NCBI RefSeq assembly: GCF_022811925.1
Contig: NZ_CP065511.1
Span: forward strand, 1,047,501-1,111,500
DNA length: 64,000 bases
From: Cytobacillus oceanisediminis
GTDB lineage: Bacteria > Bacillota > Bacilli > Bacillales > Cytobacillaceae
Direction: 5' to 3'
Shown here: positions 24,643 through 48,678 of the stretch, piece after piece
How positions within the stretch are numbered: position 1 is the stretch's first letter
How the letters are laid out: each line of letters begins with the position of its first letter
The notes under the pieces: generated by a model
Seen by the model: only the letters and a program-made list of their open reading frames with translations
Database searches by the model: none
Told to the model about the DNA's origin: nothing
Position numbers and translations under genes: made by a program

Positions 24643-24800
24643 CGTTATAAAAAAATCAAATTAAAGGTTTAAGGGTAAATTAGAAAGGGTATAAAAAGTT
24701 AGGGGTCTGGAAGCATGATGATATCTTCCATATTTAAGTTCAAGAGAAGGACTTTTCGAGATAAAAACGAAAGTGTATAGTATATAAAACAAAGGGGCGT

Positions 24801-25646
24801 ATGCTTAAAATGGAAGCAACTTACAAGGAAACCAAGGATATAGCAGGGTTTATTGTCGCAAATCGTGAGAATTTTCAGCGAAAATTATTATCCGAGGCTG
24901 TGAATGTAGCCTCTAAAATCAATGAAATCCTCCAGAGAGGCAATATCGATCTTTTAAAAAATGCCGAGAAATTGGCTTTATATGTGGCCGAAAATAAAGA
25001 AGAAGAGCTGATTGCTTTTGCCAGACAGGAAGGCGTTGCCTGGGCGGAGCATTCCCTGACGCTGTCATTTAAGCTGGAATGGGTACAGGCCATCCGGCGC
25101 ACTTTGTGGTACTTTTTATACCAGTTTGACAAAATCAAAGGGCAACAGACCGTGGGTGAGGACTTCTATAATATGGAAAAGGAAGTCAATGATCATGTTG
25201 ACCAATTTTTGAATAACTTCTTCATCAGCTACTCTGATTATAAAGATGAAATGCTTAAGTCACAGCGCAACCTGGTTGAGCATTTGTCGGTGCCGATTAT
25301 TCCGGTCAGCACTTCTGTGGCCGTACTGCCGCTGATTGGCATGATTGATTCCTACCGGATTCAGACGATTGAAGAGAAGGTTCTGATGGATATCTCATCC
25401 ATTAAAATCCAGACCTTGATCATGGATCTTTCCGGAATTGCCGATATGGAAATCGACGTCATTGTTCACTTCAAAAAGATCCTGAGCGGCATCAAAATGA
25501 TGGGATGTGATGCGGTCCTTACAGGCCTGCGTGCTGAACTTGTCCGAAAAATGATCCATGCCGGCGTATCATTCGAAAATCAGGCGGAAACAAAGGGAAC
25601 AATGCAGCAGACATTAAAAGAATATCTAGTGAATGAATCGAAATAA
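24801..25646 (+). CDS. RsbR-type stressosome protein (STAS domain)
   Basis: A 281-residue RsbR paralogue. The N-terminal 150 residues are helical and globin-like, followed by a linker and a STAS domain (about 165-280) beginning LSVPIIPVSTSVAVLPLIG. Phosphorylation-site regions are recognisable as MDLSGIADME and TGLRAEL. RsbR proteins form the stressosome with RsbS and RsbT and pass environmental signals to sigma-B. The closest B. subtilis type is probably RsbRD/YqhA by size and tone; this is not certain. It is a single gene with its own terminator. A second STAS protein lies at 47.9 kb. Confidence 0.85.
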   Translation: MLKMEATYKETKDIAGFIVANRENFQRKLLSEAVNVASKINEILQRGNIDLLKNAEKLALYVAENKEEELIAFARQEGVAWAEHSLTLSFKLEWVQAIRRTLWYFLYQFDKIKGQQTVGEDFYNMEKEVNDHVDQFLNNFFISYSDYKDEMLKSQRNLVEHLSVPIIPVSTSVAVLPLIGMIDSYRIQTIEEKVLMDISSIKIQTLIMDLSGIADMEIDVIVHFKKILSGIKMMGCDAVLTGLRAELVRKMIHAGVSFENQAETKGTMQQTLKEYLVNESK

Positions 25647-45909: not shown

Positions 45910-46189
45910 TCTCCTTACTCCCTAATAGTGAAAATTTGCACCCAAGACCTAATTATACAGAGGGGAATAGGTATTAATAACCACCTTTTCTTTAATTTTC
46001 CAATAAATCGTCCGACCTAATTCGCCAAAATGCGATCTTGTTTGCAGGAAAAACTTAACAATTCTTACAGATACTATCTTAACCGGGAATAACGAGAGTC
46101 ATAACGAGCCAGAGACATATCTTGGCATCGGACTTAAGGCTGAGAAGAAGGGGGACGGGGATTAATGATGAAAAACTTGGAGAGTACGT

Positions 46190-46440
46190 GAAAATGGTAG
46201 TTAATCATCCTGATTAAAGACGAAAAAGTGGAGAGAGGAAGAGAAATGGTAGTTAATCAACCGGATTAAAGACGAAAATGTGGGGCAAGGAGAGAAAATG
46301 GTAGTTAATCAACCGGATTAAAGACGAAAATGTGGGGCAAGGAGAGAAAATGGTAGTTAATCAACCGGATTAAAGACGAAAATATGGGGCGAGGAGAGAA
46401 AATGGTAGTTAATCATCCAAATTAACGACGAAAAATCGGA
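46190..46440. repeat. Tandem array E: 5 units of 52 bp with inverted repeat TTAATC-N-GATTAA
   Basis: GTTAATC begins at 46200, 46252, 46304, 46356 and 46408, a constant 52-bp step. Each unit holds TTAATCAACCGGATTAA or a variant, which can fold as a small hairpin, followed by GACGAAAA, a G-rich block (GTGGGGCAAGGAG) and AAATGGTAG. Three middle units are nearly identical; the first and last are more diverged. 52 is not a multiple of three. The array lies between the divergent RND exporter gene and the B12/STAS operon. The rest of the 45.9-46.6 kb gap shows no gene. Confidence 0.93.
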
Positions 46441-46578
46441 GAATAAATAGAAACAGCAACTATTTATCCAGCAAACAAAAAATCTCATCAATTGCCTATA
46501 ACCCTCCCAAAATGACAATCCAAATCAGTGTGTTATACTTAATAAAGCCAGAAAACTCCCAAAATTGGAGGAGAGTTC

Positions 46579-46884
46579 ATGTACACCGTTTTTTCAACAT
46601 TTGACGTTCCCGATGAAAAGTCGGAAGAAGTCATTCGCATATATAAAAATCGTTCGCGGTCGGTCGACCAGGCGGAGGGGTTTATCGATTTTCTGCTGCT
46701 GCAGAATGATAAGCGCGCCGGTGAACTGACGGTGCAGCTCATCTTTGATACAAAGGAAAACTATTTAAACTGGGTCCGGAGCGAAGATTTTAAGAGAATC
46801 CATGATTTAGAGAAAAAGTATCCGGATCAGGAATTGGCTGCAGTGGTTCCAAAGGTTTCGCAATATAAGGTGGTGGCTAAGTGA
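46579..46884 (+). CDS. Antibiotic biosynthesis monooxygenase domain protein (HmoB/IsdG-like)
   Basis: A 101-residue protein with a single ABM ferredoxin-like fold (VFSTFDVPDEKSEEVIRIYKNRSRSVDQAEGFIDFLLLQND ... YLNWVRSEDFKRIH). The FIDF then W and H pattern fits heme-degrading monooxygenases of the IsdG/Hmo group, though ABM proteins vary. It starts after GGAGGAG and overlaps the next start (GTGA). It leads an operon with a helical protein, a B12-binding protein and a PAS/STAS protein. Heme or tetrapyrrole handling here would fit B12 chemistry, which is inference. Confidence 0.75.
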   Translation: MYTVFSTFDVPDEKSEEVIRIYKNRSRSVDQAEGFIDFLLLQNDKRAGELTVQLIFDTKENYLNWVRSEDFKRIHDLEKKYPDQELAAVVPKVSQYKVVAK

Positions 46885-47246
46885 AATTTGAAAAGATCGT
46901 AAACAGTGTTACCGAAGAAATCTATGAACGCGAGCCTTCCCTGCTGGAGCGGTTTGGCGAACAAGGAAAAGAGAAGTGCCGCGAAGATAACCATCATCAT
47001 ATGAAGCATCTCGAGACAGCTTATGAGCTGAACCAATCTGCTTTTTTCACTGATTATGCCGTCTGGCTTGATGGCATTTTAAAGAAGCATGGGATGAAGA
47101 CCCGGCATCTGATCGACAATTTCGAAATCATTCAGGCTGTGCTGGCTAATGATACAGATTCTGCTGATAAGGCAGAGAAGTTTCATCTTTATCTGGCGGA
47201 AGCCATTGCTGTTTTGAAAGGTGAACCTGTGAAGGGAGGAGTGTAA
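46881..47246 (+). CDS. Helical protein linked to a B12-binding sensor
   Basis: A 121-residue all-helical protein, GTG start overlapping the previous stop by 4 bp. It contains KCREDNHHHMKHLETAYE, then FFTDYAVWLDGILKKHGM and LIDNFEIIQAVL. This pattern (K-C-x-E-D, a histidine cluster, then F-x-D-Y-x-x-W) resembles, from memory, helical domains fused or linked to cobalamin-binding domains in other bacteria; I could not verify this. The next gene, one base after its stop, encodes a B12-binding protein, so a joint function is likely. Confidence 0.65.
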   Translation: MKFEKIVNSVTEEIYEREPSLLERFGEQGKEKCREDNHHHMKHLETAYELNQSAFFTDYAVWLDGILKKHGMKTRHLIDNFEIIQAVLANDTDSADKAEKFHLYLAEAIAVLKGEPVKGGV

Positions 47247-47247
47247 G

Positions 47248-47892
47248 ATGAACCAGGCTGAAACACTCGCTTCACTGCTGCTGGAAGGCAATTCTGCAAA
47301 AGTTTGGGAAAACATTCAAGAGCATCCGCAGCTATCGCGTCTCGAAGTTTATCAAAATTTGATTACACCCGCAATGCAGCATATCGGCTTTTTATGGGAG
47401 ACAAATCAGATCACAGTCGCAGACGAACATTTGGCAACAGCAACATGTGATTTTGTGCTCTCAAAACTCGCTTATCAGCGGGAAAAAAGACAATCAAGCC
47501 AAAAAGCCATGTTTCTCTGCCTGGATGGGGAACAGCATTATATTGGCCTGAAAATGGTCAACAGCCTTTTTGAAGAGCACGGCTGGGAGACGAAATATTT
47601 TGGCCCGAGCCTGCCTTTGGAATATGCGCTGAAAACGGCAAAAGATTGGAAGCCAAGCGTAATCGGACTGTCGGTCAGCATCGTCTATCACCTGCCGAAG
47701 CTGAAGGAATATGCCGAAGCATTTGCTAAACTGCCGCATAAGCCGGCTGTTCTTCTTGGCGGGCGTTTAGCAGGGAAGTATGATCTGCTTCCTTATTGCT
47801 CTGATCATACGGTCATTCTACAGGATTTGCCGGAAACAAAGGAATGGCTGCAAAACTATGAAGCGGGAGGACAGCAAAATGCAATATTTTGA
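47248..47892 (+). CDS. Stand-alone cobalamin-binding sensor, CarH-like B12 domains
   Basis: A 214-residue protein. Residues about 8-80 match the helical B12-binding-2 cap and 85-205 the Rossmann-like B12-binding domain. Key positions: W50 and E60-H61 form the W-x9-EH motif known from the CarH photoreceptor, E95-x-H97-x-x-G100 the lower-ligand motif, S142-x-S144 and GG at 171-172 the nucleotide-loop contacts. The MerR DNA-binding domain of CarH is absent. It should bind adenosylcobalamin and could respond to light by losing the upper ligand. It overlaps the start of a PAS/STAS protein gene, the probable output. Confidence 0.82.
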   Translation: MNQAETLASLLLEGNSAKVWENIQEHPQLSRLEVYQNLITPAMQHIGFLWETNQITVADEHLATATCDFVLSKLAYQREKRQSSQKAMFLCLDGEQHYIGLKMVNSLFEEHGWETKYFGPSLPLEYALKTAKDWKPSVIGLSVSIVYHLPKLKEYAEAFAKLPHKPAVLLGGRLAGKYDLLPYCSDHTVILQDLPETKEWLQNYEAGGQQNAIF

Positions 47893-48664
47893 TCAGCCGC
47901 TTCCGCTTGCGTTTTTAAAAGCTGACAGGAACGGGAAAATAGTTAGCTACTCCACAATAGCATGGGAAAGCTTTGACCTGAGCCAGGGGCATTTAAAAGG
48001 AATCATTGATGAGGAGAGCATTGAAAAGCTGATTCAGTACAGCTGGGAGCCCGGATTGGATCCCGTGAAGCTGGAACTGAACATGAAGACCAGGGAAACA
48101 CAGCTTTCTTTATTTGAGGTTCATATTCAATGGGACAGCGAGGATCATGCCAATATGCTGTTTCTGCCAAAAGACAGCTCGAATGAAGGCTTGATGGATA
48201 AACTGATGCAGCTGCAGCAGCGCCTGTCCTCAACCGACTTTGAACTGCTGGAGAAAAAAGAAGAGCTGGAGCAGGTGCTGATCCGCTTAAACCAGCTGTC
48301 CGGGCCGTTTATTCCGCTGTCGGAAACCCTGTGCCTGATTCCTTTATTCGGCGACATTACACCAGATAAAATAAACGTTATTTCCGAAAGCTGCTTGAAA
48401 GCTGTTTTTGCAGGCGAATATGAAGAAATTCTCTTTGATCTGACAGCGGTTGGGGAGATTGAAGGAAAAGGCATTGAGAAATTCACCCAGCTGATTAAAA
48501 CATTGAACTTCATGACAGGCAGCATTATCAAATTGATCGGCATTAAGCCAAACCTGGCGAAAATGCTGAATAACTATAAGCTGGATGAATGGGTGCAGAT
48601 CGATCAATCCCTGAAGCAGGTTTTAAATGTCTATTTTAATCGGAATGAGTTAGGGGCCTCTTAG
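47879..48664 (+). CDS. PAS-like plus STAS domain protein (RsbR-like)
   Basis: A 261-residue protein. The N-terminal 100 residues look PAS-like (PLPLAFLKADRNGKIVSYSTIAWESF), then a coiled coil (about 115-150) and a STAS domain (about 155-260) opening with LSGPFIPLSETLCLIPLFGDI. The first RsbR phosphosite region is kept (FDLTAVGEIEGKG); at the second, the usual TGIRPE-type threonine is replaced (LIGIKPNLAKML). ATG 47879 has GGGAGG upstream and overlaps the B12 gene by 14 bp. It could plug a B12/light signal into the stressosome; this is inferred from domain and operon context. Confidence 0.8.
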   Translation: MQYFDQPLPLAFLKADRNGKIVSYSTIAWESFDLSQGHLKGIIDEESIEKLIQYSWEPGLDPVKLELNMKTRETQLSLFEVHIQWDSEDHANMLFLPKDSSNEGLMDKLMQLQQRLSSTDFELLEKKEELEQVLIRLNQLSGPFIPLSETLCLIPLFGDITPDKINVISESCLKAVFAGEYEEILFDLTAVGEIEGKGIEKFTQLIKTLNFMTGSIIKLIGIKPNLAKMLNNYKLDEWVQIDQSLKQVLNVYFNRNELGAS

Positions 48665-48678
48665 GAGGTCTTTTTTTG
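48650..48678 (+). terminator. Terminator of the B12/STAS operon
   Basis: GGCCTC and GAGGTC pair closely around the TAG stop region and are followed by seven T residues. Confidence 0.75.

Follow-up and report, generated by a model that had tools for sequence, protein, structure and literature searches.

Which signal would an RsbR-like protein carry into the stressosome when its gene overlaps that of a cobalamin-binding protein? Such a pair lies in the window, the whole 64,000-nucleotide stretch analyzed here from a 5.58 Mb Cytobacillus oceanisediminis genome, and the B12 protein it encodes is 97% identical to homologues in C. oceanisediminis 13_TX and Bacillus sp. NTK034. The abstract of a 2016 paper calls the sensory input of Gram-positive stressosomes unidentified (PMC4976288); for one RsbR-like input, the locus provides a set of conserved genes from which a ligand and a signal can be predicted. 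We favor, with moderate confidence, a split B12-plus-bilin light sensor (a split photocobilin) that has its own bilin supply and signals into the stressosome and sigma-B. Computed here are the arrangement of the genes, how far it is conserved, the predicted folds and signature residues, and globin-B12 fusions elsewhere, together with a sigB operon and adenosyltransferase genes in the genome and closeness to rsbT or ytvA in three lineages; heme cleavage, binding of bilin and adenosylcobalamin (AdoCbl), photochemistry, protein contacts, and the sign of the output are inferred. In relatives of Bacillus, the module may provide input to the general stress response. If this reading is correct, B12-bilin photobiology is no longer limited to fused proteins but includes a modular system of separable parts, which gives Bacillus a multi-part green/red input, and provides a function for a family of 121-aa proteins without a Pfam match.

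Organization of the locus

Four genes on the forward strand form a single directional unit starting at position 46579. ORF1 (46579–46884; 101 aa) encodes an ABM-fold protein resembling heme monooxygenases of the IsdG/HmuQ type and is the candidate bilin source. ORF2 (46881–47246; 121 aa) encodes a stand-alone photoglobin, a predicted bilin-binding globin with Cys33-x-Glu-Asp36 and Trp62. The B12 protein (47248–47892; 214 aa) combines a B12-binding_2 helical domain and a cobalamin-binding domain with a CarH/photocobilin signature, and the PAS-STAS protein (47879–48664), with an output of the RsbR/YtvA type, consists of a PAS fold (residues 6–99), a linker helix (99–140), and a STAS domain (about 141–257). 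ORF1 and ORF2 overlap by 4 bp and a single base separates the stop codon of ORF2 from the start of the B12 gene. The 14-bp overlap previously reported between the B12 and PAS-STAS genes is present at 47879–47892, with a likely ATG start at 47879. The first-pass annotation described a two-gene B12/STAS operon; the pair is there, but ORF1 and ORF2 had been overlooked, and their presence upstream changes the nature of the operon.

A candidate operon promoter on the forward strand (46512–46539; ATGACA, 16 nt, TATACT, with an extended −10 TG) matches consensus at 10 of 12 positions, though it is weak alone, as the scan yielded eight sites in total with 5.2 expected. Of 71 stretches preceding the homologous gene, 15 contain TATGTTATACT, TGTTATACT, or a near form, and these 15 are mostly from close relatives. 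No match to a strict sigma-B promoter pattern, with no mismatch allowed, precedes the operon. On the same strand, a candidate intrinsic terminator with a 9-pair stem, 4-nt loop, and T tract (48652–48673) overlaps the end of the PAS-STAS gene; it draws its support from position, the scan having found three terminator-type stems with 2.8 expected. Just upstream of the operon promoter is a tandem array of about five 52-bp units (46159–46443).

The cobalamin protein, the globin, and the heme monooxygenase-like protein

The W50-x9-E60-H61 and E95-x-H97-x-x-G100 motifs that had been pointed out in the B12 protein are both in the 214-aa ORF. B12-binding_2 and B12-binding are the only Pfam domains above cut-offs, and the protein therefore has no HTH, in agreement with the DNA-binding domain having been called missing. 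Among 82 distinct relatives, G47, W50, E60, H61, H97, and G119 do not vary, and P123 is present in 78. All four motifs of the SignatureFinder light-responsive CBD (GxxW, EH, GxxH, and GxxxP; PMC11796333) occur in the window protein; among relatives, only 43 of 82 retain the Gly of GxxH, and 78 of 82 retain the Pro of GxxxP. In that study, the four signature-bearing proteins that were tested responded to green light.

Which known family the B12 protein most resembles was addressed with a profile of 43 sequences (A7) searched against the PDB. Its nearest solved structure is SasPcob (4.6e-23), followed by 8jbs (2.7e-20), 1y80 (3e-15), AbPcob (2.4e-14), 4jgi (1.1e-13), a methionine synthase (3.1e-12), and CarH (4.8e-11), such that 8jbs, 1y80, 4jgi, and the methionine synthase also outrank CarH. 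The NCBIfam CarH model scores 46.2 bits against a cut-off of 400. The earlier label of CarH-like is apt for the cobalamin signature, which is of the CarH type, but the profile is closer to photocobilins than to CarH. Like photocobilins, the protein has a CarH-like B12 domain with W-x-EH and E/DxH motifs. With CarH, a photoreceptor of MerR-B12 architecture, it shares the cobalamin domain and adenosyl-pocket signature, but it differs in having no HTH, no direct DNA output, and Glu rather than His after Trp. Residue 51, which follows Trp50, is Glu in 81 of 82 relatives and Gln in the other one. In light-state CarH, the position next to Trp provides the second His ligand; because Glu is found there, the bis-His light state is not expected in the B12 protein.

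Two other assignments were rejected. A plain CarH-like regulator was dismissed because the protein has no HTH and the host has a separate CarH-like protein (G000:C1:4172553; L127), a 309-aa frame with a MerR-like N terminus by eye. For a corrinoid methyltransferase carrier, NCBIfam gives a lower score than for CarH, contrary to the ranking in the PDB profile search; this assignment was dropped because W50 and E60-H61 are invariant. The genome encodes two PF01923 adenosyltransferases. In the split photocobilin, the B12 protein would carry AdoCbl, with Trp50 and Glu60-His61 holding the adenosyl group. Green light on B12, or red light through the bilin, would break the Co–C bond, and release of the adenosyl group would then change the shape or oligomeric state of the protein.

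ORF2 has no significant match in Pfam or NCBIfam. The best fold matches of its predicted structure are the SasPcob bilin domain and phycobiliproteins, which are tied, but none of the Foldseek matches has an E value as low as 0.001, and hemoglobins are also among the matches listed. Asp36 and Trp62 are spaced 26 residues apart, as are Asp270 and Trp296 of SasPcob, and the residues are paired in the profile alignment with 8j2x. Hence ORF2 has equivalents of the two residues that mark the bilin-binding globin domain of photocobilins and, as judged from sequence, retains residues touching the B12-facing bilin in SasPcob. The CxED motif aligns to C-A-R-D of phycocyanin, and across 73 distinct globins, including ORF2 of the window, 52 have Cys at the phycobiliprotein attachment position, a difference from photocobilins. 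By sequence, ORF2 is nearer to phycocyanin than to photocobilins, and the photocobilin matches alone are not significant. ORF2 would hold the bilin through Asp36 and Trp62, possibly covalently through Cys33, and would dock on the B12 protein.

In photocobilins, both domains are on one polypeptide, whereas in the window they are encoded by separate genes. Beyond the order, the globin profile has matches in 11 sampled genomes, and globin and B12 domains are fused (∼360 aa) in all nine loci read (G422, with a 219-aa frame, and G721, with a 360-aa frame, were left out); several of these loci adjoin a histidine kinase-like gene. Locus L130 has a globin-B12 frame, broken in two, followed by a GGDEF gene. 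The B12 protein probably has its second half in ORF2, the globin encoded just upstream.

ORF1 has an ABM fold (Pfam ABM, 48.3 bits; cut-off 23.1). Its NCBIfam HmuQ score of 44.2 bits is below the cut-off of 130, and its profile matches a hypothetical protein (E 1.3e-4), the heme-degrading monooxygenase 8avh (2.8e-4), and IsdI (1.1e-3) in the PDB. After removal of duplicates and entries under 90 aa, H75 and S6 are conserved in 68 of 68 family members and W65 in 60, the other eight having Tyr. IsdG/HmuQ heme monooxygenases likewise combine an ABM fold with a conserved His and a mostly conserved Trp; ORF1 differs in its subthreshold family score and in Ser6, which pairs with an Asn of 8avh. The active site of IsdG/HmuQ enzymes is Asn-Trp-His, and ORF1 lacks the full triad, having Ser6 in place of Asn. 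Column identity in genus alignments is highest for ORF1, at 91% compared with 69–73% for the others (alignments of 7 to 9 rows that differ from gene to gene). Heme cleavage by ORF1 is plausible, and the enzyme would open heme to a linear tetrapyrrole.

The same components can be read as a cofactor-status sensor that reports AdoCbl, heme, or O2 status to the stressosome and for which photochemistry is incidental. ORF1 would couple heme and O2 to such a sensor, and the same domains could read AdoCbl versus other cobalamin occupancy. A light-sensing B12 protein may already exist in the host because of its separate CarH-like protein with a MerR-like N terminus. We nevertheless consider status sensing rather unlikely given that all 82 relatives have W50, E60, and H61 in the adenosyl pocket, that the four signature-bearing proteins tested in PMC11796333 are green-light responsive, and that, if pigments played no part, the presence of a dedicated bilin-type globin would be difficult to account for.

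Known systems already include photocobilins, photoglobins, and globin-B12-HO gene sets. The photocobilins SasPcob and AbDPcob (PMC10979010) have a CarH-like B12 domain, W-x-EH and ExH motifs, and a bilin-binding globin, but the module here is divided over two genes rather than being one chain, has a heme monooxygenase-like gene alongside, and has a PAS-STAS output. According to PMC10151467, BBAG-2 gene sets also pair a stand-alone bilin-binding globin with a B12-binding protein, in association with heme oxygenase (HO). As described there, the sets are from pre-2 FDBR lineages and Myxococcales and have an RGMC motif and HO, whereas the module here is from Bacillales and has CxED, an ABM-fold (IsdG-type) protein replacing HO, and PAS-STAS output.

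Conservation and gene order

Within the genus, the B12 protein was found in 22 of 36 genomes searched, at 51% identity or more. All four genes are intact in 15 of the 22 loci, and one or more are missing or broken in seven (L021, L030, L031, L033, L034, L035, and L037). At two loci of the genus, the globin is missing but ORF1, B12, and STAS are present. Decaying copies were observed: L033 and L072 have a lone B12 gene with remnants of ORF1 upstream, L030 has the ORF1 start codon followed by a stop codon, and in L055, of the same strain type, ORF1 is cut short.

A scan of one genome per species confirmed 143 loci. Gene order was taken from the best 80 of 143 by similarity, which biases it to close relatives; these loci include members of Cytobacillus, Metabacillus, Mesobacillus, Peribacillus, Halobacillus, Pontibacillus, Planococcus, Bhargavaea, Jeotgalibacillus, and Paenibacillus. 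Sixty-three of these best 80 have the four genes in the order ORF1-ORF2-B12-STAS (62 by script plus L051, whose STAS gene missed the distance cut). Other arrangements among the best 80 are B12-STAS without ORF1-ORF2 (six, with L113 holding the pair in a second cluster nearby; in five, no globin or ORF1 is beside B12-STAS within the stretch examined), a divergent globin plus a PAS-only protein (three), ORF1-B12-STAS without globin (two), no STAS gene after B12 (five), and B12 alone (one). Where ORF1 meets ORF2 in these loci, the genes overlap by 4 bp in 65 of 68 cases; overlaps were derived from the longest open frame and some of those between B12 and STAS are overstated. Linkage of B12 and STAS genes, proposed earlier as a check in related genomes, is thus kept across many genera. 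Contigs titled Pseudomonas sp. ISL-84 (L065) and Chryseobacterium sp. ISL-80 (L085) carry a Bacillus-type module, and their record names are probably wrong.

A less biased view comes from an order-wide sample of 299 genomes, of which 126 have the globin, 140 the B12 protein, and 119 both; the globin occurs in 44 of 117 sampled genera. Of the 126 genomes with the globin, 73 have it no more than 2.5 kb from a B12 gene and 42 have it apart from one; seven have no B12 match at threshold and in four adjacency is undecidable because the place of B12 is not listed. These adjacency counts were made by eye, with G138 taken from L130, and some pairs scored as apart are on different contigs. Neighbors outside these gene families (sigB operon members, rhomboid, acpS, alr, and kinases, as well as CheB/CheR, GGDEF, and ytvA) were likewise named by eye. 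Six split genomes (G062, G045, G040, G191, G201, and G113) have ORF1-ORF2 in one locus and B12 plus a PAS protein in another. Because split genomes keep them as separate loci, ORF1-ORF2 and B12-PAS are two stable pairs, often but not always together.

Separate loci raise the possibility that ORF1-ORF2 is a heme-handling pair, for degradation and carriage of the product, that merely travels with B12-STAS. The 42 of 126 globin-positive genomes in which the globin is away from the B12 gene, the six split genomes, and loci with one pair only are in keeping with such independence. Against it, globin and B12 share a genome in 119 of 126 cases and are adjacent in 73, other Bacillota have them as a fusion, and ORF2 retains the SasPcob residues touching the B12-facing bilin. 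We regard an unrelated heme-handling pair as highly improbable.

The PAS-STAS protein and its proposed connection to the stressosome

The description of the last gene product as a PAS-like plus STAS protein is upheld for STAS by Pfam (29.8 bits; cut-off 22.6) and for PAS by structure prediction only. Pfam gave no PAS match on this protein, and its AlphaFold model has a PAS fold at residues 6–99 (pLDDT 82.6, pTM 0.50). A LOV-type PAS was rejected since the NCRFLQG-type cysteine motif is absent by eye from the window protein; this motif was seen in a gene neighboring L141 and L146. Linker and STAS are nearest to RsbR and YtvA, in line with the RsbR-type output assigned at first, and the protein has the linker helix plus RsbR-type STAS that characterize stressosome proteins of the RsbR/YtvA kind. 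Like these sensors, it has an N-terminal sensory domain, and YtvA also brings light to the stressosome. The PAS-STAS protein differs in that its PAS fold is without the LOV cysteine motif, its predicted chromophores are in separate partner proteins, and the examined Thr positions are not conserved.

The first-pass annotation contrasted LIGIKP with a usual T-G-I-R-P and took this altered second phosphosite region to suggest specialized signaling. LIGIKP is present, and the description of T-G-I-R-P as usual holds in part: RsbRA of the same genome has V-G-I-R-P and other paralogues have T-G-I-R-P. In the STAS family (matches with E of 1e-30 or better; 73 rows including one RsbRA; kinase and PAS-only forms left out), 3 of 72 proteins have Thr at the last position of VVDT, and the T of AQT is not conserved, these positions being unmapped to the published T205/T209. 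Because neither examined Thr position is conserved among STAS relatives, LIGIKP does not look like a single specialized site, and that part of the proposal needs revision.

The PAS domain is not confined to STAS proteins. It is fused to a histidine kinase in L113:1989-3107 and L144:2369-3478, where the gene order is B12, PAS-kinase, ORF1, ORF2. Short PAS-only proteins are encoded in L087, L089, L109, L133, L135, L137, and L143, several by eye near CheB/CheR-like genes, which suggests that PAS-only proteins after the B12 gene are another output branch. Since PAS stays beside the B12 gene while the C-terminal part changes, the signaling contact would be from B12 protein to PAS, with ORF1-ORF2 supplying a second pigment. 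The N-terminal PAS would read the change in the B12 protein and relay it through the linker helix to the STAS domain. This domain would sit in the stressosome next to RsbR and RsbS, presumably in contact with RsbS/RsbT, and would tune RsbT release and sigma-B.

Genomic context is consistent with this route. The genome has a sigB operon. By eye, with three regions read, at least 20 of the 299 sampled genomes, from two families, have the module no more than 12 kb from rsbT, and B12-STAS is beside LOV ytvA and an rsbR paralogue in G201 and G227, of one genus, so that closeness to rsbT or ytvA is found in three lineages. Each family may have inherited its proximity to rsbT as a single arrangement. 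At a threshold of 1e-40, with five genomes having weaker matches counted as negative, RsbT is in 121 of 126 globin-positive versus 109 of 173 globin-negative genomes, an association that is confounded by phylogeny.

Alternatively, the sensor could be a split photocobilin with a STAS protein that has no place in the RsbRST stressosome and instead targets, for example, a different partner-switching kinase or titrates RsbT as a decoy. Neither examined Thr position is conserved, the same PAS domain is also on non-STAS outputs, and five of the 126 globin-positive genomes have no clear RsbT, all of which this alternative would accommodate. Its linker and STAS are nonetheless nearest to RsbR and YtvA, and two families have the module near rsbT while a third has it beside ytvA, making an output elsewhere improbable.

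Among the papers listed in literature searches on photocobilins, photoglobins, the stressosome, and CarH, none showed a Bacillales module of the ORF1-ORF2-B12-STAS kind (a 2022 photoglobin paper may list part of it), and to that extent the earlier claim of an undescribed B12-stressosome arrangement stands. Coupling of B12 to STAS is, however, not wholly undescribed because PMC10979010 proposes, from network data, links of SasPcob to STAS, SpoIIE, and PP2C proteins. Tentatively, and as a possibility only, the parts can be read jointly as a self-sufficient photoreceptor cascade of separate proteins in Firmicutes that provides a green-to-red input to sigma-B. The IsdG-type enzyme would make a bilin, perhaps a nonstandard one, which the free-standing photoglobin would attach through Cys33. 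Light caught by bilin or AdoCbl would break the Co–C bond in the partner protein, and the separate PAS-STAS subunit would carry this single-use switch into the stressosome. Light input to sigma-B would then also depend on B12, heme, and oxygen, and the PAS receiver would be movable onto histidine kinases and other outputs.

Additional STAS genes were observed in this genome. In the window, a perfect sigma-B-type promoter match (GTTTAA-N14-GGGTAT; 24667–24692; 0.01 expected in the window) is ∼110 bp before another RsbR-like STAS gene (24801–25643). Two STAS proteins encoded elsewhere in the genome, of 341 aa (L012; G000:C1:621558) and 343 aa (L014; G000:C1:3798209), have in common a different N-terminal domain, which to us looks like V4R and is perhaps another sensor type for STAS output.
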